Shown here: positions 1,422 to 49,086 of the stretch, piece by piece
Layout: each line of letters begins with the position of its first letter
Numbering within the stretch: position 1 is the first letter of the stretch
From: Vallitalea guaymasensis
GTDB taxonomy: Bacteria > Bacillota > Clostridia > Lachnospirales > Vallitaleaceae
Assembly (NCBI RefSeq): GCF_018141425.1
Contig: NZ_CP058561.1
Location: 992,001-1,056,000 of the forward strand
Reading direction: 5' to 3'
Length of the DNA: 64,000 bases
The notes under the pieces: generated by a model
Seen by the model: only the letters and a program-made list of their open reading frames with translations
Told to the model about the DNA's origin: nothing
Databases searched by the model: none
Position numbers and translations under genes: made by a program

Positions 1422-4220
1422 TTAATTGTTATACTCTATGATAATCTGATTATTCTTCTTTCCTATCTCCAACTTATCCATACCCTGGATACAATTTTTT
1501 AACTCTTTTAACTGGTGCATCTCAAAGGAATTGTCATTAATCATAATAGAATTATAGGTATTAGAATAAACAATCTTAACTGATTTAGTTATTGATAAAC
1601 TATAGCTTTCATAGTTTTTCTTTTTACTATTACTATTTTGTTTTATTTCACCATTAAATACTAATTCTGTACTTGAATCGCTTTCTTCAATACTTATCAT
1701 CGAATCACTCTGATGAAAACCTGAAAGCTCATCTATTTTGACATCATCAATATATATATTAATATAGCTTTGGATTACTTTTGCTCCATTCCCATCTTTA
1801 CCTGGTATCATTGTTGATTTTAAGTAAATAGTTTTCTTATTGTTTTTTACTGCTGAATCATCACTTATACCGATAGTATGTCCTTCTCTAAATATATTTA
1901 TAGGATCACGATAACATAAGAATATTAATATTCCAATAGTAATAAATACAATTTTCTTTAATAATCCTCTTTTAAATATGCTAGTATTAGAAATACTATC
2001 ATCTTTTAAATAAGAAATATTTTCATTATACATTTTCACATTATCTTGTTTTGTTGCTGCTGTTTCTAAATTTGTAATAGTAAAGTCTTTTTTAATCAGC
2101 TCTTTTTCGAGGTCATCTACCTTATTCTTATATTGCTTTTGAATAGTTTTAAGTTTTCTATCTTTCTCAATTGTCTTTTTCTTTTCATCTTCTATCTTCT
2201 TTTTAAGCACTTGTATATCTCGTTCATATTCTCCACTTGGTTTTACAATTTCACTTGATCTGATATGCTGATTTTTAACTCTTGTCTGATTTTTAGTGGA
2301 ATTTGTTTTCTCAATAATTTTATTTTGAAAATTGCTAACATCATTAAATGAGTTATCTATTAGCCTATCTATTATTTCTAACGCTTCAGGAGCAGTATAT
2401 TTATCCATATTAGCTGTTATTTTTCTAATCCCAACTATTGTCTTCATCTTATTTAAAAGCTGTTCACCATATAGCTTATAACGATTTTTCGAATCCTTTT
2501 CAATATTATATTCACGGCTGAGTTCCTGATAAACTTGTTTAATAACTTTTACATTATCATATTTCTTTGCTTCTTCTTTATATATAATCATCAGACTATA
2601 TTTAGCTCTAGTCATAGCTACAAATGTAGACTTATGATAAGTGGATGCTTTATCGTCTTTTATACCACACAAGATAACGTGTTTAAATTCTAAACCCTTT
2701 GCACTATGCCTTGTATATATAAAAGCTTCATTATCCTCAGGTTTACAGTCTTTTTTATCGCTATATAACTTAACTTTTGAATATTTATCTTCTTGAAATC
2801 TTTTTACATACTTTTCAATATCTTCATTTTGATTAATAATAATAGCTATATTATTTGCTAGTTCTCCTCTCACTAATAAATACTCTATATGATCCTTAAT
2901 TATGTTATATTCGTCATCATCGTCTTTGGCTTCCTTTAATATAGGCATTTCACCACTTCTAAAGTGTTCTTTTATCTTTGTACTATAATTACTGTTATAT
3001 TTATTCTCAGATAATTGTGCTTTTAATTTTTCATTTTTCAGGAAAGTATATGCAAATACAAAGATTTCTTCTGTTGTACGATAATTTCTAGTTAATAGAT
3101 CAACTTTTTTTTTGATATCAATAACAATATCTTCCCCATCTGGATCTAGATTATGTTGTCTTCCATATACATTTTGTGCTCCATCAGAAGCAATAACAAT
3201 TATTCCATCTTTCTTAAGAGAGTCTTTAAGTTCCTTCAACATACCATTGTCAAAATCTTGACCTTCATCAACTAAAATATAGTCATATTGACCTTTTTTT
3301 TCCTTCCAACTCTCATAATAGTTTAATTCTATTTGTTTATTATATTTTAATTCTTTTGTTTTAGCATAAATATGAGATTTTATACATGAGTTAAAGTAAA
3401 TTAAAAGTATCTTTGCATTAGGCTTATGGCTTGCTATGTATAATGCTTTTGTTTGAAGTACTATTGATTTACCTGTTCCTGCATTACCTCTTATAAGTTC
3501 ATGCTCAGTGGGAATACTTTTTGCCATAAGTATTTGATCCCATTCTAATGCTTTAAAAATTGGTTCATCATCATCTATAATAAATTGAGGATAAATGGCA
3601 CTACTAAAAATTTTAACATCTTTATCAGTCATATCTCTTGTAAATGTATGATAAAATTTGTCTTGTAATAATTTTATGTAATCATTATTTGCATCAGGTA
3701 TATGATATTTACCCTGTTTATCTCTTCGTCTTCTTGTATTACTTTTAAGTGATTGCAATTCATCTTTAAAAATAATATCTTCGGGTTTTAATATGTCAGA
3801 TATTTTCGTACCTCTATTATCTTTAAATTCCATATATTCAGAATAAGTAATATTACAAAAACAAACTACTTTATTAACTGGATAACCATATATATATTTA
3901 TCTTTAATAATGTTTAATAGTTCATTGCTGTACTCTTGGGCTTGAACTAATGGGTTTTTTACATTACTTCTATTCTTTAAATTGACTGATTTCTTATCAA
4001 ATCTTCTAATATAATCAAGGTCCCAGTCTTTTACTTCAATCACCATTACCCCTATTTTTTTACCAACAACAATAAAATCGGGTTCTTTATTATTTACATT
4101 TATTGTATAATAGACTATATAATCATCTGGCAATTTATGCAAGAAATTTAGAAGCTCTTTTTCTCCTGGAGTCATATTAGTTGTAATATATTGAGGTATA
4201 ATCTTAGCCAAAATCTCCAC
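1422..4220 (-). CDS. NERD-domain SF1 helicase with coiled coil and C-terminal membrane anchor
   Basis: A 932-residue protein. Residues about 15-130 look like a NERD (nuclease-related) domain, with EPDFIVVG and VMVIEVKDW carrying the D and E-x-K residues. An UvrD/Rep-like SF1 helicase core follows: Walker A GNAGTGKS near residue 246, Walker B VDEGQD near 318, LTRNYRTT, HSAKGLEF near 505 and VAMTRAK. A charged coiled coil covers about 655-725, then one hydrophobic segment (FITIGILIFLCY, about 755-770) and a soluble tail of about 160 residues. NERD-helicases occur among anti-phage systems; the membrane anchor is unusual. It follows the KAP gene by 139 nt on the same strand, so the two may be co-transcribed. 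The start is probably GTG at 4220, with a TTG a few codons later as the alternative. Confidence 0.82.
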   Translation of the reverse strand: MEILAKIIPQYITTNMTPGEKELLNFLHKLPDDYIVYYTINVNNKEPDFIVVGKKIGVMVIEVKDWDLDYIRRFDKKSVNLKNRSNVKNPLVQAQEYSNELLNIIKDKYIYGYPVNKVVCFCNITYSEYMEFKDNRGTKISDILKPEDIIFKDELQSLKSNTRRRRDKQGKYHIPDANNDYIKLLQDKFYHTFTRDMTDKDVKIFSSAIYPQFIIDDDEPIFKALEWDQILMAKSIPTEHELIRGNAGTGKSIVLQTKALYIASHKPNAKILLIYFNSCIKSHIYAKTKELKYNKQIELNYYESWKEKKGQYDYILVDEGQDFDNGMLKELKDSLKKDGIIVIASDGAQNVYGRQHNLDPDGEDIVIDIKKKVDLLTRNYRTTEEIFVFAYTFLKNEKLKAQLSENKYNSNYSTKIKEHFRSGEMPILKEAKDDDDEYNIIKDHIEYLLVRGELANNIAIIINQNEDIEKYVKRFQEDKYSKVKLYSDKKDCKPEDNEAFIYTRHSAKGLEFKHVILCGIKDDKASTYHKSTFVAMTRAKYSLMIIYKEEAKKYDNVKVIKQVYQELSREYNIEKDSKNRYKLYGEQLLNKMKTIVGIRKITANMDKYTAPEALEIIDRLIDNSFNDVSNFQNKIIEKTNSTKNQTRVKNQHIRSSEIVKPSGEYERDIQVLKKKIEDEKKKTIEKDRKLKTIQKQYKNKVDDLEKELIKKDFTITNLETAATKQDNVKMYNENISYLKDDSISNTSIFKRGLLKKIVFITIGILIFLCYRDPINIFREGHTIGISDDSAVKNNKKTIYLKSTMIPGKDGNGAKVIQSYINIYIDDVKIDELSGFHQSDSMISIEESDSSTELVFNGEIKQNSNSKKKNYESYSLSITKSVKIVYSNTYNSIMINDNSFEMHQLKELKNCIQGMDKLEIGKKNNQIIIEYNN

Positions 4221-4359
4221 CTCATTTCATGTTTGGCTGCTTAATTCTTTTAATACATTACTTCACTTTTTATATTTTCAGATTTCAAACATCTATTTAT
4301 ATCATCAAATATAATCAATAGTTTTTCCATACTTTTACTCAAGATGAATCACCGTAATA

Positions 4360-7272
4360 CTACTCATTTGATGGTAATAATGCATCAAGTACTTTATAAA
4401 TATCTACTAAATGTTTATCATAAGATGCAGTATAGCTACCTGTTATTATTTGAATATTTTTACTTTCAAATTTTAGTGCTTTAATATCATTTCTTCTGTG
4501 TTTCCAATAAGTTATGAGTGAATTTTTATCTAAAACATTTAATATCAAATTTATATCAAGTACATAATCTCTAGACAAATGTGCTAATAAATAATCTAAA
4601 AAATGCGTATAGTTAGTTGTACTATTATTCTCTGCTTTAAAACAAATTTCAAATAAATACTCATTAAATTCTTTATTTATGCCTTTACTATCTTTGTTTC
4701 CACTAACATCATAGTATCCGCAACCAATTCCTGTATCATCATTTATGGTATTTCCTAATTGATAAATAATAAAAGATTTCATTTTAAATTTCAACAAAGA
4801 AAATTCATTATTTATTCCTTCACCTTTAATCTTATTAGAACTATTATATCCACCTACATCATTCAGTGTAAGCTTATCTATTTCATCAAAAATATTTTTT
4901 TGTTGCTCAATATAACGAGACTTAAAAGTCATAAAAATATTTTGAGATATCTCACGCATTTCATTTTTAACAAAATCTTTATTAATATCTTTAACACTTA
5001 TTTTAGGATTTATATGGTTAACTAAAGCCCTTGTTAAATTAAATATATCTAATCCTCTACTTTCATGACAAGAAATACGAAAATTCAATATATCATATAG
5101 CGCTAAAACACCTTTTTCTTCTTCTCCTAAAATGTTTAAAACCCCTTCTTCCTTAAAATCACCTTCCCCAAAAATCCATTCTGCAATTTTAGCTATATTT
5201 TTATCTGTATTATCATACTGCTTTATATTTTTATCAATCCAGCCTATATCATTAAGTAATTTAACGATAAATATAATTAATGTTTCTCTAAAACTTCTAA
5301 TTTTTAACAATGAATATTTGTTTAAGTTCTTAAGAGCGTAACCAATTATCTCTTTTGTTTTTTTATAATTAGTTATTTCATACACATTATTAACTAAAGT
5401 TCTCCAGAATTGTTCATGAGTATCTTCACCATTTTCAAGAGAAAATTCTTTACTATTAAATAAATCTTCAATAGTTTTATTTAATAATAATTCATGTACA
5501 CAATTAACATAAAATCTATACTGTTCAATCTTAGCAGGAAAAGATGTATTGATTATAAGATTCAGATATCTTTCTAAATTTCTATTGTTTCCATTCCATT
5601 CTGAACCATTAAAGCAAGCATATGAAGTCAATATTTCTTGATTGATAGTTTTATCCTTAATTCTTTGAGTTACATTAAAAACTTCATCTAAAATAAATTT
5701 TTGATTTTCTGAAAGATTTCTTAAGTAGTTTTCGTACAAAGATGAATTTTTATATTTTTCCTTATCCTTAACCAAAACTGAAAAAAATCCATTTTTGCCT
5801 GCAGTTTCAGTATTATAAATAGTTCTAAATATATTAGGATAATTGATATAAATTAATAATAAATTAGTAAGATCTTTTTTGTTGAAATCACAATTATCAA
5901 AATCAGTTTTTTCAATATTAAGTAATAAAATTGTATTTATTAGTCTCTTAAGCTTTCTAGCATCACCGATAAAAGGCAAATAACGGTAATAATCATTAGA
6001 CTCAAATATATCTTTAACCCCTTCTATAGCTTTTGATATAAGAACTGGATCAGCCATAATATTTTCTGATAAACTTTCATCTTTTTTATCAATAAAATAT
6101 TTTAGCAATAATTTATTATCTAAAAAAATACTAGTTTTTACATTAATGAATTTCTCTAAGAACTCCATTACATTCTCTGTATCAAAATTTGTTTTTTCAA
6201 GTTTACCAATATTCTCTGTATCATAACAAAGTACATAAGAAATATTAGATAGGGTAAAAGCTTTTTTTATTACAAAAAGCATCTCTTTAATAGCCGAAAA
6301 ATTTAATCTGTCTAAATCATCAATTATTATTATTATTTTCTTATCTATATTTTTTAACGCTGATTCCAATCTCTCAAAAATATCATCTATTGATTGATTT
6401 ACTGATGGAAGTTTAAATCCTAATCCCATAACAGAAAATGATGGTTTAGAATCCTTTATTATTTTAGCATATTGTGAAATAAGCCACTCAATCTCAGGAA
6501 CAAAAATGTGATTTTTGATTTCATTAATTAACCCAAATATAAATTTATCTAACATTTTTTCTTTATTTTCGTATCTTAAAGGATTGAATGTATAAACTAT
6601 TATCTCATCCTTGTATTTTTTATTCCAATATTCTTTACAAAGGTTAACAAATGTTGATTTTCCTGTTCCCCATGGAGCATCAATTCCAAAAACCAAACCT
6701 TCTGATGAGTTTTCATTATAAACTTTCTCACAAAAATTATCAGCCTTATCTGAGAAATTAAATTTATCATCACTTCTACTTTCAACTTCTTTGTCACTCA
6801 TAAAAAGTGAGTTTTCATTAAGCTTCGTTACTAAACTAACTTGTTGATTTCTTAAGAAAAATGAGACGCAAAAAATAATAGGCAACAAAACCAAAGCCAT
6901 AAGTTGTGGGAAAGCCAATGTTCTAAGTAAATTTTCAAAAGAAATCGTACCAAAACCATCAAAAACAAATACTAGGATTCCTCCCCAAACCAAAAAAATT
7001 AGCAAATCTAACCTTAAACTTTTTATAAGTACTTTCATTTTCTTGCAATAATTTCTCATGTAAAGATAACATATAATTATTAAATAATATAATACTCTAA
7101 TGATCCATATTAGACATTCGTTATTAGGTAAAAAAGGGAATTCCCAAAACACCTTATCAACTACAGTAACTAAAATAAAAAGCTCAGAAATTAAAGCCCC
7201 AACAAAAAAAGATTTTAATAGCATTGAATAATTTATATATGTATACTTGTTTTTTTTACTATGTTGTCTCAT
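4360..7272 (-). CDS. KAP-family P-loop NTPase with N-terminal membrane segments
   Basis: A 970-residue protein. The first 150 residues contain about four hydrophobic helices (for example LIWIIRVLYYLIIICYLY and LMALVLLPIIFCVSFFL). A KAP-type NTPase domain follows, with Walker A APWGTGKST near residue 200 and Walker B IIIIIDDLDRL near 315, then a long helical C-terminal region. KAP NTPases are typically membrane-associated, and many bacterial members are found with plasmids, phages and defence genes. The NERD helicase gene lies 139 nt downstream and also carries a membrane anchor, which suggests a shared function at the membrane. No nuclease or toxin domain is recognisable in this chain. Confidence 0.85.
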   Translation of the reverse strand: MRQHSKKNKYTYINYSMLLKSFFVGALISELFILVTVVDKVFWEFPFLPNNECLIWIIRVLYYLIIICYLYMRNYCKKMKVLIKSLRLDLLIFLVWGGILVFVFDGFGTISFENLLRTLAFPQLMALVLLPIIFCVSFFLRNQQVSLVTKLNENSLFMSDKEVESRSDDKFNFSDKADNFCEKVYNENSSEGLVFGIDAPWGTGKSTFVNLCKEYWNKKYKDEIIVYTFNPLRYENKEKMLDKFIFGLINEIKNHIFVPEIEWLISQYAKIIKDSKPSFSVMGLGFKLPSVNQSIDDIFERLESALKNIDKKIIIIIDDLDRLNFSAIKEMLFVIKKAFTLSNISYVLCYDTENIGKLEKTNFDTENVMEFLEKFINVKTSIFLDNKLLLKYFIDKKDESLSENIMADPVLISKAIEGVKDIFESNDYYRYLPFIGDARKLKRLINTILLLNIEKTDFDNCDFNKKDLTNLLLIYINYPNIFRTIYNTETAGKNGFFSVLVKDKEKYKNSSLYENYLRNLSENQKFILDEVFNVTQRIKDKTINQEILTSYACFNGSEWNGNNRNLERYLNLIINTSFPAKIEQYRFYVNCVHELLLNKTIEDLFNSKEFSLENGEDTHEQFWRTLVNNVYEITNYKKTKEIIGYALKNLNKYSLLKIRSFRETLIIFIVKLLNDIGWIDKNIKQYDNTDKNIAKIAEWIFGEGDFKEEGVLNILGEEEKGVLALYDILNFRISCHESRGLDIFNLTRALVNHINPKISVKDINKDFVKNEMREISQNIFMTFKSRYIEQQKNIFDEIDKLTLNDVGGYNSSNKIKGEGINNEFSLLKFKMKSFIIYQLGNTINDDTGIGCGYYDVSGNKDSKGINKEFNEYLFEICFKAENNSTTNYTHFLDYLLAHLSRDYVLDINLILNVLDKNSLITYWKHRRNDIKALKFESKNIQIITGSYTASYDKHLVDIYKVLDALLPSNE

Positions 7273-39963: not shown

Positions 39964-40254
39964 CTAATCATCCTCACCTAGTATTGAATTTCTTATGTCT
40001 GAATCAATCTCTATGGATTGTTTTATAGGCGGTACTATAACTTCACAATCCATCTTCACATCACCATTATCAAGTTTATTATTAATTTCATCTATCTTCT
40101 CTTCAATTCTGCTCATGTCTTTCATGAAGTCCTTATTCCTTTCATAAAACCTAATGGCTTCACAAATATATTGTGAAGCATTAGATTTACTGTTAATCAT
40201 GTCCAATACGTCCTGATTTTCCTTGTTGAAGCTAAGTAATTTTTGTCTACTCAT
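39964..40254 (-). CDS. parR: ParR-like partition adaptor
   Basis: 96 residues. The N-terminal part (SFNKENQDVLDMINSKSNASQYICEAIRFYER) fits a ribbon-helix-helix DNA-binding fold; the acidic C-terminus (DSDIRNSILGEDD) would contact the actin-like filament. The start overlaps the ParM stop by 4 nt, and parC-like repeats lie upstream of parM. This is the order parC-parM-parR of type II partition systems. Identification rests on context plus fold pattern. Confidence 0.75.
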   Translation of the reverse strand: MSRQKLLSFNKENQDVLDMINSKSNASQYICEAIRFYERNKDFMKDMSRIEEKIDEINNKLDNGDVKMDCEVIVPPIKQSIEIDSDIRNSILGEDD

Positions 40255-41216
40255 AGAACCCCAGCCTTTACTAGTCCAACAATCTGGAAACCTTTCGCAT
40301 TAGCCCATTGAGCATCCGTTTGAGGTAATTGGACATGTGGAACTGACTTCTTGAAGTAATCGTATATTATCTTACTTGTACCACCAACACATATTACTGG
40401 CATGATAGAGAGATTAATGTTCTTTTCTTTGATACTGGTAAGTACGTTATTTTTTATATAACGGTTTATGGTACTGCATACAATTACAGCACTTTCTTCC
40501 TGCAGTTTACCATTAATGATTATTCCACCATTCTCTATGGCTTTAGCTGCTGTTTTCAGATCATAGTCATCACCAAAATATGTACTAAGTTCTTCCCTTA
40601 CCATAGTTTCTAGGAAAATACCTCCGTAGTTATTAGAAAATAGTGTACTTGGTATTGGTACTAGATTATCGTATACACCAACATTCATGTTACGTCTGCC
40701 TATGTCAATAACAACTACCCTGTTATTTCTGAATACTGCTGGTTCAAGGTAGGTGATTCCACTACCTTCATGTTTTATTATCACTCTTTCAAAAGTTATT
40801 TTATAATCTGTTCCATTAACTTCAATTTCAACTGGTGTTTCAGGAGCAATAAACTCTCTAAATTCCTCTTTGAGTTTGACGTTTTTAAATATTGCAGTAG
40901 GACAACCAACCGTTAATGTTACATAAGGTGTTGTGTCTCTTCCAGCAATTTTACATATAGCTGTGTATATTGCTAATTGATGTGTTAAGGATGTCTTTGT
41001 TGTATCAGTATCGTAGTGTTCTCCTTGTTCACCGATTATATAGTTTTTACCCTGATAACTAACTTTATAGGAGTTACCTTCAACATCAATATCTCCATCT
41101 GCTAGATCATAGGATTTAGTTAAGAAAAATACTTCTCTATCTGTTGAATCAATTAATTTTCTTCCTAATGCCTTGGTAGCACTTTTACCAGCATCAACTG
41201 ATATAATATATTTCAT
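40251..41216 (-). CDS. parM: ParM-like actin ATPase for DNA partition
   Basis: 321 residues with actin-superfamily motifs: ISVDAGKSATKAL (phosphate 1), TLTVGCPTAIFKN, VVVIDIGRRNMNVGVYDN (phosphate 2), VICVGGTSKIIYDYF (adenosine) and the ending AQWANAKGFQIVG, where 'A-N-A-x-G' is typical of ParM/Alp proteins. It would form filaments that segregate DNA bound by ParR at parC. In a phage this implies a stage as a low-copy plasmid or a role in moving replicating phage DNA. SD AGGAGGAATAATTGG. Confidence 0.88.
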   Translation of the reverse strand: MKYIISVDAGKSATKALGRKLIDSTDREVFFLTKSYDLADGDIDVEGNSYKVSYQGKNYIIGEQGEHYDTDTTKTSLTHQLAIYTAICKIAGRDTTPYVTLTVGCPTAIFKNVKLKEEFREFIAPETPVEIEVNGTDYKITFERVIIKHEGSGITYLEPAVFRNNRVVVIDIGRRNMNVGVYDNLVPIPSTLFSNNYGGIFLETMVREELSTYFGDDYDLKTAAKAIENGGIIINGKLQEESAVIVCSTINRYIKNNVLTSIKEKNINLSIMPVICVGGTSKIIYDYFKKSVPHVQLPQTDAQWANAKGFQIVGLVKAGVL

Positions 41217-44153: not shown

Positions 44154-44198
44154 TTAACTCACCCCTCTTGTATTTTGTTGATTCAAAATCACATTTAC

Positions 44199-44228
44199 AT
44201 ATTAACATGCTTAGTGATTAATTGTCAA
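44199..44228 (-). promoter_or_regulatory. Leftward early promoter (PR-like)
   Basis: On the - strand TTGACA (44,228-44,223), 18 bp, TAATAT (44,204-44,199), about 46 nt before the Cro-like start codon. The -35 box lies inside an inverted repeat GTCAACA (44,224-44,230) / TGTTGAC (44,253-44,259) shared with the rightward promoter, a likely operator pair. Confidence 0.72.
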
Positions 44229-44254
44229 CATTTTTTTATGTTTTTAATTTTTTG

Positions 44255-44283
44255 TTGACTTTTAATCTACAATATGCTAGATT
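44255..44283 (+). promoter_or_regulatory. Rightward repressor promoter (PRM-like)
   Basis: TTGACT (44,255-44,260), 17 bp, TAGATT (44,278-44,283), 37 nt before the repressor ATG at 44,321. Its -35 box coincides with the second half of the GTCAACA/TGTTGAC repeat. Confidence 0.7.
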
Positions 44284-44320
44284 GTTTTATATAAACAAAA
44301 GTTTAGAAAGAGGTAAAATT

Positions 44321-44887
44321 ATGGGATTATATGAGAGGATAAAAAATCGACGTGAAGAATTAAAAATGACTCAAGAAGAACTAGCAACTAAAATGGGCTA
44401 TAAATCTCGTTCTACCATAGCTAAAATTGAATCAGGTGCAAATGATATTCCACAGTCAAAAATTAAAGATTTTGCAGAAGCGCTGCAAACAACTCCTTCT
44501 TACCTAATGGGATGGACAGATGATACAGGATTTGCAAGTGAAATCACAAAAAAACAAATAAATAAAACAATATTTTCTCAACGTTTAAAAGAAATAATGG
44601 AAGAAAATAATGAAACGACTTATACTTTGGGTGATTCATTACATCTAAGTGCTGCAACAATATCTAGATATACTATCGGTGAAATGGTTCCTAAAATTAC
44701 AACTATTGAAATACTATCATTAAAATATAATTTAAATCCTGCATGGCTTATGGGTTATGATGTTCCTAAACACATAAAAACTGACAAACCTAATACACTA
44801 GCAGCTCATGCAACAAAAGATCTAACAGAAGAAGAACAAGAAAAAGTTATTGAATATATTAAGTTTCTTAAATCCCAAAGAAAATAA
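44321..44887 (+). CDS. Repressor-like protein with two HTH domains
   Basis: 188 residues. HTH 1 (YERIKNRREELKMTQEELAT, then YKSRSTIAKIESG) and HTH 2 (about 88-150: FSQRLKEIMEENNETTYTLG, then SAATISRYTIG) each end in a P-x-x-L/Y-M-G-W/Y-type turn. The C-terminal tail HATKDLTEEEQEKVIEYIKF recurs in the next two proteins. As the first gene after the promoter it is the best candidate for the prophage repressor. There is no S24 self-cleavage domain; induction may depend on the ImmA-like protein at 46,282. The frame is open upstream, but AGAGGT supports ATG 44,321. Confidence 0.82.
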   Translation: MGLYERIKNRREELKMTQEELATKMGYKSRSTIAKIESGANDIPQSKIKDFAEALQTTPSYLMGWTDDTGFASEITKKQINKTIFSQRLKEIMEENNETTYTLGDSLHLSAATISRYTIGEMVPKITTIEILSLKYNLNPAWLMGYDVPKHIKTDKPNTLAAHATKDLTEEEQEKVIEYIKFLKSQRK

Positions 44888-45002
44888 ATTTATTATTAAT
44901 AATAATAAGCTTTATATATTACAAACAACAAACAGCTAAATAACTACCAGTATAAATATAGTACAACTATCGGGAATTTTAATTATAAGCTGAGGTATAA
45001 AT

Positions 45003-45854
45003 ATGAATGAATTGAGTAAAAATATCAAAATTGCTAGAACTAAAAAGAAAATGAGCCAATTAGAACTTGCAAAAGCTATTGGTAAATCTAAAAATGTAAT
45101 CTCTAATTGGGAACGTGGAAATAATAAACCTGATGTTGATAAAATAGAGTTATTATGTACATTGCTAGACACTACTCCAAACAAATTAATGGGTTGGGAA
45201 TCACCTATTCATATAGTACCAGCTTATGTTACACAAGAATTAATTCAAAAAGACATTATTAAAAGGATAAAAAATAGAAGAATTAAACTTAGTTTATCCT
45301 ATCAGGATTTAGCCAAAAAAACAGGACTTAGTAAATCTACATTACAACGCTATGAAACTGGAACTATTGGTAATATCCCATTAGACAAATTAGAGATATT
45401 AGCTAAAGCTTTATGCGTTTCACCTGCATATATAATGGGTTGGGAAAAAGATGTCGTTAATAAAAAACCTAAAACTATTGCAGCTCATTCCACAGTTAAT
45501 ATATGTGAGCAAAAACATCAAATGGAATTTAAAGATAAAATCAAAAAAAGACGTACAGCATTAAATATGACTATGCAAGAATTAGCTAAAAAAATTGGAG
45601 TTAGTACTCCTACAATACAGAGATATGAGAGTGGAGAAATAAAAAATGTTAGAAAAGATAAAATTACATTATTAGCTTCGGCTCTTGATTGTTCACCTGG
45701 ATACCTAATGGATTGGGAAGAAAATATAAATAACGAAACATCAAAGCAGAATGAAATTAATACTATTGCTACTCATGCTACTGAAGATTTAACTAAAGAA
45801 GAACAAGAAAAAGTTATTGAATACATAAAGTTTATAAAGTCACAAAGAAAATAA
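45003..45854 (+). CDS. Repressor-like protein with three HTH domains
   Basis: 283 residues holding three successive XRE-type HTH domains, about 5-66 (IKIARTKKKMSQLELAKAIG), 83-150 (IKNRRIKLSLSYQDLAKKTG) and 176-240 (KIKKRRTALNMTMQELAKKI). Each is closed by Y-x-M-G-W or an equivalent. The conserved tail (HATEDLTKEEQEKVIEYIKF) ends the chain. Triple HTH proteins are uncommon. Such a protein could bind three half-sites along an extended operator. SD TGAGGTATAAAT. Confidence 0.8.
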   Translation: MNELSKNIKIARTKKKMSQLELAKAIGKSKNVISNWERGNNKPDVDKIELLCTLLDTTPNKLMGWESPIHIVPAYVTQELIQKDIIKRIKNRRIKLSLSYQDLAKKTGLSKSTLQRYETGTIGNIPLDKLEILAKALCVSPAYIMGWEKDVVNKKPKTIAAHSTVNICEQKHQMEFKDKIKKRRTALNMTMQELAKKIGVSTPTIQRYESGEIKNVRKDKITLLASALDCSPGYLMDWEENINNETSKQNEINTIATHATEDLTKEEQEKVIEYIKFIKSQRK

Positions 45855-45909
45855 ACCCATATTTAAAACTTAAAGGGGGTTAATACAAATGACAAAACTT
45901 TTATAATAT
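45786..45909 (+). repeat. 124-bp direct repeat, copy 1 (copy 2 at 46,179-46,302)
   Basis: The 3' end of the three-HTH gene, the spacer and the first five codons of the ImmA-like gene are duplicated almost exactly at 46,179-46,302. Copy 1 therefore contains a dead ImmA start: ATG at 45,890, then ACAAAACTTTTATAA, which stops at once. The repeat shows that the one-HTH gene between the copies arose by segmental duplication. Confidence 0.88.
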
Positions 45910-45923
45910 AAGGAGATTCTTAA

Positions 45924-46247
45924 ATGGAAATAGGTGAAAGAATAAAAAAAAGAAGAAAAGATCTTAACATGTCACAAGAGGAGTTAGCTTTTAAATTAGG
46001 TTATAAATCACGTTCATCAATAAACAAAATTGAAAAAAGTGGTCGTGATTTACCTCAATCAAAAATTAAAACAATAGCTGATGTTTTAGGTGTAACCCCT
46101 TCTTACATTATGGGTTGGGAAGATTCTAGTAACACTAAGTTAGATACAACTAAAACAATAGCAACTGATGCTACAGCAGATTTAACTAAAGAAGAACAAG
46201 AAAAAGTTATTAAATACATAAAGTTTATAAAGTCACAAAGAAAATAA
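45924..46247 (+). CDS. Repressor-like protein with one HTH domain
   Basis: 107 residues: one HTH (ERIKKRRKDLNMSQEELAFK, then YKSRSSINKIEKSG), very close to HTH 1 of the 44,321 protein, and the same tail (DATADLTKEEQEKVIKYIKF). It lies between the two copies of a 124-bp repeat. It could act as a competitor or heterodimer partner of the longer repressors. SD AAGGAG. Confidence 0.82.
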   Translation: MEIGERIKKRRKDLNMSQEELAFKLGYKSRSSINKIEKSGRDLPQSKIKTIADVLGVTPSYIMGWEDSSNTKLDTTKTIATDATADLTKEEQEKVIKYIKFIKSQRK

Positions 46248-46281
46248 ACCCATATTTAATAACTTAAAGGGGTTAATACAA

Positions 46282-46737
46282 ATGACAAAACTTTTACAAT
46301 ATATTGAAGAGGAAAATATAGAACTTATTGAAACAGATATACCAATTAAAAATCTTAAAGGTCTATATTATGATAATACAATCATTATTGATAAGAAAAT
46401 AGCTACTACAGTTGGAAAGAAATGCATCTTAGCTGAAGAAATAGGGCACTATTATACAAGTACAGGGGATATTTTAGATCAATCTAATATTAGCAACATA
46501 AAGCAAGAAAACAAAGCAAGAGCATGGGCTTTCGAAGAATTGATAGGGTTAGTCGATATAATAAATGCATATAAAAGTGGAGTGCGTAATAAATATGAGT
46601 TAGCTGAATACTTAGATGTGACTGAAGAATTTCTGGATGAAGCTATTGAGTACTATAAAAGGAAATTCGGAATATTATTTAATATTGACAAGTACATTAT
46701 ATATTTTGAACCATTTGGAGTAATAGAAAGACTATAA
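46282..46737 (+). CDS. ImmA/IrrE-like metallopeptidase
   Basis: 151 residues. ILAEEIGHYYTSTGDI holds an E-x-x-H core, with Ala in place of the first His of HExxH, as is usual in this clostridial subgroup. QENKARAWAFEELI gives the downstream conserved helix. ImmA proteins cleave phage or ICE repressors after DNA damage; here the likely targets are the three repressor-like proteins encoded just upstream, none of which has a LexA-type self-cleavage domain. SD AAAGGGG. Confidence 0.83.
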   Translation: MTKLLQYIEEENIELIETDIPIKNLKGLYYDNTIIIDKKIATTVGKKCILAEEIGHYYTSTGDILDQSNISNIKQENKARAWAFEELIGLVDIINAYKSGVRNKYELAEYLDVTEEFLDEAIEYYKRKFGILFNIDKYIIYFEPFGVIERL

Positions 46738-46794
46738 TAATTAAAATTGGTATTAACATAATATAAATCTTGATTGAAGAAAAGGAGGTGCTCT

Positions 46795-48210
46795 ATGTCA
46801 GCGAACCTAGAAAAAAGAGTAGCTTGTTACGTTAGAGTAAGTACAGAAAATCAGCTTGAAAATTATAGTATAGATGAACAGACAGACCGTTTAAAAGCTT
46901 TTTGTAAAGCCAAAGATTTAAGTATTGTCAAGTTCTATACTGATGGAGGCTATTCAGGTGGAAATATGAACCGTCCTGGACTTCAACAGATGTTAAAAGA
47001 TATTAAGGATAAGCATATTGATATGATTATAGTATATAAATTAGATAGATTAAGTAGATCACAAAAAGATACTCTAACATTAATTGAAGATGAATTTCTA
47101 TCAAACGATGTTGATTTTGTGTCAATGAGTGAAAACTTTGATACCTCTACTCCCTTTGGCAAGGCTATGATTGGTATATTATCTGTATTTGCTCAGTTAG
47201 AAAAAGATCAGATCACAGAACGTTTTACCATGGGACGTATTGGTAGAGCTAAAAACGGATATTATCATGGTGGACCAACAGCCCCAACAGGCTATGACTA
47301 TATAGATGGTGAACTTGTAGTAAATGAATACGAAGCATTACAAGTCAAAGAAGTTTTCAAGCGTTTTTTAGATGGTCAGAGCATCAATGCTATACGAAAA
47401 TACATGAGTGAACATTATACTAACAAATATGGAAACTGGAGCAGTCATACACTAGTCTTAAATATATTAAAAAACAAAGTATATATAGGTAAAGTGAAGT
47501 TTAAAGGTAAAGCATATGCTGGGAAACATAAGCCAATAATATCAACTGATATTTTTAATGACGTTCAAAAAATATTAACTAGCACAAAAAGAGAAGATTC
47601 TAAGACTATTTTTCAGAAAAACCCATTTAAAGCTAATAATTTATTAACTAGTCTAATATACTGTAAAAATTGTGGTGCAAGATTTTGTGGTAATCATGGA
47701 AACTATGTTTGTTATTCCAGAGGAAAAACCGATAAGCGAAAAATTATAGATCCTAATTGTAAAAATAAAAAATGGAATATACAAGCTTTAGATAAGATTA
47801 TAAAAGATGAAATACTAGAAGCTGCACTGAATAAAGAATACTTCAATAAAATAATATCTAACAAAGAAATTGTACCAGTTGATAATACAAAAAAAATGAA
47901 GAAGCGTATAGATGAAATAGATAAACAAATCGTTAGAATGATGGACTTATATCAAGTTGGTGATATCCCTATAGAACAAATATCTCACAGAATAGTAAAA
48001 TTGAAAAAAGAAAAAGATACTATTTCAGACCAACTTGTAGATAAAAAACAAACAAAGCTTTCTATAGCAGAAGCAAAAGGAATATTATCAAGAGCAGCCA
48101 TAATATTAGAAAATGGTGATTTATCTCAGCAAAGAATGGTTGTTAGCAACCTAATTGATTATATTGAGATAGATGATGAATGCATACAAATTCATTGGAG
48201 TTTTGTATAA
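46795..48210 (+). CDS. int: Large serine recombinase (prophage integrase)
   Basis: 471 residues. Resolvase domain with catalytic Ser16 in YVRVSTENQ, then YTDGGYSGGNMNRPG and VYKLDRLSRSQKDTL. A recombinase domain follows (GPTAPTGYDYIDGELVVNEYEA), then a zinc ribbon (LIYCKNCGARFCG ... DPNCKNKKW) and a coiled coil (about 385-445) with a short tail. The gene ends about 20 bp from the FeoB junction, the usual attP-proximal place. The ATG at 46,795 has AAAGGAGGTGCTCT. It should integrate and, with a directionality factor, excise the phage at feoB. Confidence 0.95.
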   Translation: MSANLEKRVACYVRVSTENQLENYSIDEQTDRLKAFCKAKDLSIVKFYTDGGYSGGNMNRPGLQQMLKDIKDKHIDMIIVYKLDRLSRSQKDTLTLIEDEFLSNDVDFVSMSENFDTSTPFGKAMIGILSVFAQLEKDQITERFTMGRIGRAKNGYYHGGPTAPTGYDYIDGELVVNEYEALQVKEVFKRFLDGQSINAIRKYMSEHYTNKYGNWSSHTLVLNILKNKVYIGKVKFKGKAYAGKHKPIISTDIFNDVQKILTSTKREDSKTIFQKNPFKANNLLTSLIYCKNCGARFCGNHGNYVCYSRGKTDKRKIIDPNCKNKKWNIQALDKIIKDEILEAALNKEYFNKIISNKEIVPVDNTKKMKKRIDEIDKQIVRMMDLYQVGDIPIEQISHRIVKLKKEKDTISDQLVDKKQTKLSIAEAKGILSRAAIILENGDLSQQRMVVSNLIDYIEIDDECIQIHWSFV

Positions 48211-48214
48211 ATTT

Positions 48215-48260
48215 TATATTACAGTTTTAGTTTATCCATGTGCATGGGATTCGGATGTAA
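48215..48260. other. Right attachment junction (attR) within feoB
   Basis: FeoB homology resumes at about 48,232 (L-S-M-C-M-G-F-G-C-N). The typical clostridial protein reads L-T-M-C-M-G-F-G-C-N here, so the crossover core is near 48,229-48,256, probably including ATGTGCATGGGATT. No copy of this core is found near the left edge of the window, so attL lies outside it. Confidence 0.7.
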
Positions 48261-49086
48261 TGCAGCTGGTATAACTGCCTGTAGGATAATAGATTCTCCT
48301 CGTGAGCGTCTTATTGCAATAATAACTAATAATTTTGTACCTTGTAATGGACGCTTTCCAACACTTATCGCACTAGCCACAATCTTCATTGCTGGAATTA
48401 GCGGTAAATTTTCATCTGTAATTGGCACTTTAGTAATTCTACTTACCATCGTTTTAGCTGTATTTTTAACTTTTGGAATATCAAAATTGCTGTCAAAAAC
48501 TATACTTAAGGGAATCCCCTCATCCTTTACATTAGAATTACCGCCTTACAGAAAACCACAGATTGGTAAGATATTGATTAGATCATTGATCGATAGAACA
48601 TTATTTGTATTAGGTAGAGCTATAGTTGTAGCTGCACCCGCTGGTGTAATCATATGGATTTTACAGAATATCACTGTTGGAGATATAAGTATTCTATCCC
48701 ACTGTGCTAATTTTCTAGAACCTTTTGCCAATATGATTGGTCTAGATGGATATATACTAATGGCATTCATATTGGGCTTCCCGGCCAATGAAATTGTTAT
48801 ACCGATACTTATTATGAGTTACATGTCAACTGGTGCAATGCTAGAACTTGATAGTCTCCAAGCTCTAAAAGATTTATTGGTTAATAATGGATGGACCATG
48901 CTTACTGCCATATGTACTATGTTATTCTCACTGAATCACTTTCCATGTGGAACTACATTATTAACCATATATAAAGAAACTAAAAGTAAAAAATGGACTT
49001 TTGCATCATTTATTATACCTACCATAACAGGGATAGTGATATGTTTTATTGTAGCTCAAACAGCTAGATTGTTTGGATTTTATTAG
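48232..49086 (+). pseudogene. feoB: feoB, C-terminal part, cut by the prophage
   Basis: About 285 codons of the ferrous iron transporter FeoB: the first Gate region with the conserved GFGCN, CRIIDSPRERLIAIITNNF, VPCNGRFP, and then transmembrane helices to the C-terminus (GFPANEIVIPI, NHFPCGTTLLTIYKE). The N-terminal G-protein domain and first helices are missing and should lie left of the prophage. An in-frame ATG at 48,238 has no ribosome site, so the fragment is likely silent. Excision would rebuild the gene, so iron(II) uptake may be under prophage control. Confidence 0.92.

Follow-up and report, generated by a model that had tools for sequence, protein, structure and literature searches.

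The repressor region of a prophage of Vallitalea guaymasensis was found to consist of three consecutive XRE repressor genes with six HTH domains, all ending in one type of C-terminal tail and followed by a single ImmA-like protease gene. We interpret this set as a bank of repressor specificities that very probably grew by accretion, shares one protease tag and may serve as immunity to other phages. Judged from the sequence, this interpretation is given an even chance of being correct.

The stretch of DNA that was analysed, referred to as the window, is 64,000 nucleotides long (G000:C1:992001-1056000) and belongs to a host genome of 5.63 Mb on a single contig. It contains most of a tailed-phage prophage, the phage genes being named by eye. 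The end of the recombinase gene adjoins the 3' part of feoB (48238-49086), and the 5' part was located at L423:15367-16731 (G000:C1:989367-990731), both parts being named by eye. The two parts are about 49.5 kb apart and flank the prophage, so the prophage is about 49.5 kb long, sits in feoB and splits it. The order of genes in the immunity region is a leftward Cro-like gene, then rightward ORF1, ORF2, ORF3, immA and the recombinase (Table 1). Helicase-like, KAP-type NTPase and actin-like (ParM-type) genes were seen by eye in the prophage regions 1422-7272 and 40251-41216.

Table 1. Features of the immunity region, with positions in the window, and the operator classes used for comparison.
Feature	Position	Strand	Sequence or motif	Remarks
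Cro-like gene, 69 aa	43944-44153	-		divergent from ORF1; L049/L157 have a similar gene, opposite their solitary repressor
Operator-like site O1	44177-44193	+	GTTGATTCAAAATCACA	similar site GTTGATTTTTAATCACG upstream of the a1-type repressor of L243
Operator-like site O2	44213-44229	-	GTTGACAATTAATCACT	over -35 of leftward promoter-like site
Operator-like site O3	44254-44270	+	GTTGACTTTTAATCTAC	over -35 (TTGACT) of rightward promoter-like site
ORF1, 188 aa	44321-44887	+	tail core TLAAH	HTH a1 44330-44512; HTH a2 44576-44755; tail 44792-44884
ORF2, 283 aa	45003-45854	+	tail core TIATH	HTH b1 45015-45194; b2 45258-45440; b3 45531-45713; tail 45759-45851
Decayed internal tail	45474-45521	+	TIAAHSTVNICEQKHQ	between b2 and b3; read by eye
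Buried ATG	45522-45524	+	ATG	at b3 start; matches start of b3-type repressors, MEFKDKIK (L201) and MDFKDKIK (L099)
Scar	45855-45910	+		copy of immA leader and first immA codons, with mini-ORF MTKLL 45889-45906; score 98, shuffle maximum 49 (1000 shuffles)
ORF3, 107 aa	45924-46247	+	tail core TIATD	HTH c1 45933-46115; tail 46152-46244
ImmA-like M78 gene	46282-46737	+	EEIGH (46435-46449)	Peptidase_M78 E 2e-9; PHROG 87 metallo-protease E 3e-40
Serine recombinase	46774-48210	+		adjoins feoB 3' part; both named by eye
Class a1			GTWGA..TCTAC	from L049, L240, L243
Class c1			GTTGA..TCTAC	from L011, L238, L242
Class a2			GTTTCGTAAC	from L116, L147
Class b1			TTCTGTAT	from L416
Class b2			CAWAAATGCAAC	from L028, L199
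Class b3			TTTACGTAAA	from L099, L051, L042, L271, L201
Class d1				from L029

The initial annotation had described three consecutive repressors with two, three and one HTH domains, and Pfam HTH_3 stretches were indeed found in these numbers. Strong scores, from 6e-18 to 1e-24, were obtained for all six HTHs with a profile that was seeded with these very domains; Pfam HTH_3 also detects all six. The reading frame of ORF2 is open across its 283 codons, and a plausible ribosome site was seen by eye before each repressor gene. The predicted lack of a LexA-like protease domain was likewise confirmed: peptidase S24, by which self-cleaving repressors of the LexA/lambda-CI type are recognised, is absent from the families listed for ORF1 (9), ORF3 (4) and ORF2 (best 25 of 51). 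Among 152 distinct XRE proteins encoded directly upstream of an EExxH ImmA, all from loci other than the window and L028, 149 have one scored HTH, three have two and none has three, so the multi-HTH set is not a matter of chance. Three-HTH XRE proteins as such are not new, and other families exist. Proteins of about 250-300 aa with three XRE domains per chain, probably chromosomal, were found at L401, L403, L405, L413, L417, L419 and L420. They differ from the window proteins in that no AAH tail was scored; they are alike along the chain (by eye) and so probably form a vertical family and not a mixture of specificities.

A nearly identical tail on the three proteins had also been claimed. The tail is present in all three, at the DNA level too, but its core differs between them. 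Positions 45755-45910 are 90% identical to 46148-46303 over 156 nt, and 44788-44943 reach 69%. DNA identity among the window's tails is 77-86%, and among its HTHs 53-67%.

Growth of the array by accretion is well supported by the sequence and very probable. The tail of ORF2, a spacer and the first immA codons recur after ORF3 as tail, spacer and the true start of immA. This copy of the immA start after ORF2 indicates that ORF3 entered at an ORF2-immA junction and that ORF2 once adjoined immA. Inside ORF2, the decayed tail and the matching methionine suggest that b2 and b3 were once separate genes, later joined by an in-frame fusion. An alignment also hinted at a decayed immA scar behind ORF1, which was rejected because 464 of 1000 shuffles were as good. 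Within the scar after ORF2, at 45880-45907, a changed base makes a promoter-like TTAATA-16-TATAAT upstream of ORF3; promoter matches overall are at chance level.

Relatives of the domains occur as separate repressors, namely of a1 (L361, 77%), a2 (L147, 64%), b2 (L199, 69%), b3 (L201 and L271, 80%), c1 (L011, 75% over residues 1-68) and, at only 53%, b1 (L416). The b2 domain is also 73% identical to gene 1 of L028. The recognition segment of a2 shares 12 of 13 residues with L116, that of b3 all 13 with L201 and L271, and that of b2 12 of 13 with L028 gene 1. The reservation of the initial annotation, that the extra HTHs might lack DNA-contact residues, is therefore contradicted for a2, b2 and b3. 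At least three of the six HTHs look borrowed from other phages.

A second array was found at L028 (G012, same family, another genus), where four tail repressors with 1, 1, 2 and 2 HTHs, again six in total, precede immA. This prophage has a tail-sheath gene (by eye), so the L028 phage is probably of a different type. DNA identities in the L028 array are 67-87% for the tails and 54-68% for the HTHs. The operators belonging to this phage itself fall into the b2 class; L028 was the source of that class, and L199 agrees with it. A b2-type recognition segment is present in L028 gene 1 (12/13; none of the 152 other repressors reaches 10/13) and an a1-type segment in gene 3 (12/13; three of the 152 reach 10/13). 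Taken with the b2 operators of L028, these shared segments mean that the window array includes a domain of the type used by the L028 phage for itself, and the L028 array one of the type used by the window phage. G012 has a further immA locus, L029, and its solitary repressor shows 79% identity to the first HTH of gene 4. An Abi-like gene (by eye) lies near the four-gene array, at L028:3381-4367.

A third array, L390, lies at 648-2910 of a 7.2 kb contig of G756 (same class, another order). Here an S24-type CI (by eye) is followed by a three-HTH and a two-HTH protein, then by a short ORF with HELYH and by an integrase. The two multi-HTH proteins have a common tail unlike that of the window, with 24 of 31 residues shared (by eye), and they look extra to a complete CI. 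Among 188 genomes of its order, the three-HTH protein matched only its own genome at E 1e-20.

Such arrays are rare. The 160 immA-anchored loci comprise 119 with a tail ORF and 41 without a scored tail. The 119 are made up of 109 with one single-HTH ORF, three with a two-HTH ORF (L086, L116, L143), six without a scored HTH and one (L183) in which another tail gene follows immA. The 146 distinct tail proteins from 362 loci and the window have one HTH in 139 cases, two in six and three in one; clusters of them occur in this set only in the window and L028. Scanning of Viral_contigs gave no relative with ORF2 and two loci, L011 and L012, with ORF3. The matched records, 149 from phages and 6 from plasmids, contain no place that covers at least 80% of ORF2. 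A tandem or multiple phage repressor array, or stacked immunity, was not found in the partial texts of an incomplete library that included PMC8960796, PMC10233336 and PMC6550527.

This rarity bears on the possibility that the set is a neutral or transient by-product, in which related phages recombined at the conserved tail/immA junction and left tolerated extra genes and fusions of little effect, so that only ORF1-HTH1, with ORF3, matters. Clustered matches in two of the 392 genomes of the order (G000 and G012; by eye, with at most 12 candidates scored per genome) would fit such an origin. The same holds for the finding that two tail repressors upstream of immA occur at none of the 160 other immA loci, a count that would miss arrays with an unscored tail, and for the scar and the internal tail, which can be read as sloppy recombination. 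However, the strong profile scores of all six HTHs, the long open frame of ORF2 and the plausible ribosome sites argue against a mere by-product, as do the values of a2 against L116 (pN 0.17, pS 0.49) and the occurrence of arrays in three prophages. A by-product is therefore considered rather unlikely.

The tail is the part common to the array. An ImmA-like protease gene after the repressors had been noted initially, and the gene is of the M78 family; its motif is EExxH and not HExxH, the motif of ImmR/ImmA. The region resembles the ImmR/ImmA systems of ICEBs1, TnSmu1 and Firmicute phages in having an XRE repressor gene directly upstream of an M78 protease gene. It also appears to resemble them in a C-terminal linker and helix common to the repressors paired with the protease. 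It differs from them by three repressors with six HTHs per protease, by the AAH linker, by one helix after the HTH in the model and by the EExxH motif. EExxH was found in 191 of 195 distinct ImmA homologues, a figure biased by scan patterns (LAEE) that favour EE. E52, E53, H56 and E76 are invariant across 68 ImmA sequences, and the zinc motif therefore begins with E instead of H. Activity of ImmA is plausible on these grounds, though not assured. The ImmA model had a pLDDT of 95.8, and its nearest folds were CapP (7t5t, Z 9.6, 127 aligned, 4.0 A) and IrrE (3dte, Z 9.5, 127 aligned, 4.2 A). Foldseek gave no match to this model at E 0.001 or better, the top two being CapP and IrrE at E 0.003-0.005 (best 0.0034, CapP), and the ImmA profile gave no match to PDB chains by sequence at E 0.01. 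In IrrE/PprI-DdrO and CapP-CapH, which serve DNA repair or defence, one protease is paired with one repressor.

Coupling of the tail to ImmA is probable and well supported by sequence comparison, though linkage of tail and immA may give part of the co-variation. Loci were anchored on immA (80 genome and 80 viral, with a second viral scan of 80 rows overlapping the first) or on the repressor (76). AAH was found within the last 60 residues of 129 of 134 distinct repressors of the immA-anchored loci, even where the following helix differs; ORF3 has TIATD at this place. For the co-variation, 212 repressor-ImmA pairs were thinned to 129 with less than 80% ImmA identity, all with an AAH-like motif. 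In these pairs, tail distance is correlated with ImmA distance (Spearman 0.288; 0 of 500 permutations as high, permutation maximum 0.173). HTH distance does not (rho 0.026, 130 of 500 permutations), and tail and HTH distances are independent of each other (-0.01). Linkage can contribute because the tail adjoins immA, but tails distant from immA are also of the local type in both arrays, and the EEQ type of the window occurs in 11 of the 129 pairs including the window (loose pattern). A RelE-like toxin-antitoxin pair (by eye) was seen at L031:5801-6249, between a TIAVH-tailed repressor and its immA.

In the AlphaFold2 model of ORF3 (mean pLDDT 79), the HTH helices extend to residue 63 and the last helix spans 89-105; the motif at 78-82 lies in a stretch, 73-84, with pLDDT below 50. 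According to PMC8960796, cleavage of ICEBs1 ImmR takes place at F95-M96, within the linker that joins the two helices predicted for its C-terminal part. In our reading of sequence, model and analogy, AAH putatively marks the recognition or cut site of ImmA. The initial suggestion that the tail serves ImmA recognition is partly strengthened, with a tail that goes with ImmA and a motif in a disordered linker before the last helix. ORF3, which does not have the histidine of AAH, may resist ImmA, and not every member need be an ImmA substrate.

Three operator-like sites were identified between the Cro-like gene and ORF1. Their arrangement follows the layout of the family, in which about three sites surround the -35 boxes of two divergent promoters (by eye). 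O3 is the single site in 1-48230 that was recovered with the L049 sites alone. A promoter scan gave 20 sites, and shuffles gave 19.8, which leaves individual promoter calls with little weight. Solitary phage repressors (L049, L099, L029, L199 and others) have the same HTH classes, with about three class operators upstream, and those of L049, L099 and L029 carry the AAH tail and lie upstream of immA as in the window. They differ in having one HTH and one gene, and L199, L201 and L271 carry other tails. Each operator class of Table 1 was chosen by eye on the basis of one to five loci outside the window, with a single locus for b1. The b2 class was first read from L028, and three sites were then found upstream of L199 (HTH 69% to b2) and two weaker ones upstream of L303 (61%). 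For b3, the class was first derived from L099, L051 and L042, and two sites each were then found upstream of L271 and L201.

Summed top-three class scores on 44154-44320 were compared with 500 dinucleotide shuffles, the window sites not being used. Shuffles were as good in 0 of 500 cases for a1 and 2 for c1, compared to 89 for b1, 100 for d1, 118 for b3, 306 for a2 and 461 for b2. In eight other regions each class gave 0/500 at its own loci (a1 at L243, 2/500), largely by construction, and L243 also gave 0/500 for a2, so the classes are not fully exclusive. A matrix of the own type found two sites each at L240 and L011 and one each at L243, L238 and L242. No site was found with it at the a1- or c1-like loci L129, L244 and L248, which were left out of the class lists used in the shuffle test. 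In 1-48230 of the window, no match at the class thresholds was found for a2, b2, b3 and d1; b1 had nine matches, to a short motif. At other thresholds, the matrix, which included the own sites, recovered all three of these and nothing else in 1-48230 (0.33 expected); a single a2-type match was seen, at 6825 (1.0 expected). Since a1 and c1 score in 44154-44320 and the other classes do not, the phage's own switch appears to be read by ORF1-HTH1 and probably also by ORF3; a2, b2, b3 and, less surely, b1 seem to point elsewhere.

These scores bear on tuning of the own circuit, the role proposed in the initial annotation. The several HTHs would then control the promoters of the phage itself in a graded manner or at multiple sites; resistance to an antirepressor would be an example. 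Operators over two divergent promoters are known from classical phage switches, and the three operator-like sites as well as the fit of both a1 and c1 agree with such a role. However, a2, b1, b2 and b3 were no better than shuffles in 44154-44320, and a2, b2 and b3 had no match at their thresholds in 1-48230 of the window. Graded or multi-site repression of this region is thus mostly unsupported, and tuning of the own circuit is judged improbable. Regulation of host genes by the extra HTHs is hardly credible: a loose b2-type inverted pair pattern occurs at 33 places in the genome against 3 for a control, a weak comparison because the pattern is palindromic and the control is not, and the b3 pair pattern occurs at 0 places in the host genome.

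If the set is instead a bank of specificities, it would be the accreted repressor array of a temperate phage. ORF1-HTH1 would be the phage's own repressor and act on the three operators that separate it from the Cro-like gene; ORF3 would belong to its class or to a closely similar one. The remaining HTHs would derive from other phages' repressors. They would have entered behind the resident repressor and ahead of immA, some of them by in-frame fusion, and every repressor would by now carry the ImmA-coupled tail of the resident type. The operon of the lysogen would then give repressors of several specificities and could silence phages with those operator classes as well as the phage itself. ORF1 and ORF2 would be expected to bind GTTTCGTAAC, CATAAATGCAAC and TTTACGTAAA sites. 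Upon induction, a single ImmA, acting through the tail that the repressors share, would remove most or all of them.

The intact recognition helices, the kinship with repressors that have other operators, the reciprocal content of the two arrays, the recurrence of arrays and the array behind a CI all point to an immunity bank. Several observations speak against it. The operator classes overlap to some extent, ORF3 does not have the AAH histidine, and the host genome contains no b3-type operator pair. The a1 and c1 domains, two of the six, look redundant for the own operator. The L029 locus shares a genome with the L028 array, which should exclude such a phage; L029 may have come first. Arrays are rare and could be transient recombination by-products, and the operator classes were hand-picked, with some misses (L129, L244, L248).

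A resident repressor can block other phages, as reported for an E. coli Nissle prophage (PMC5987069) and for Cluster A mycobacteriophages (PMC6550527); an array or a shared protease tag was not met in the portions of these two reports consulted. It is proposed here, tentatively, that some temperate phages may keep a growing bank of their rivals' DNA-binding domains on a resident protease tag, with stacked immunity and joint release by one ImmA. Superinfection immunity is usually described as one repressor with one specificity. With stacked specificities behind one protease-coupled tail, a prophage would be able to keep out several unrelated phages without losing normal induction. The array predicts from sequence alone which operators, and hence which phages, would be concerned. 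It would also show an exchange of immunity specificity in which HTH parts move freely and the tail stays with ImmA. If true, the bank would record competing phages in a heritable form coded in protein.
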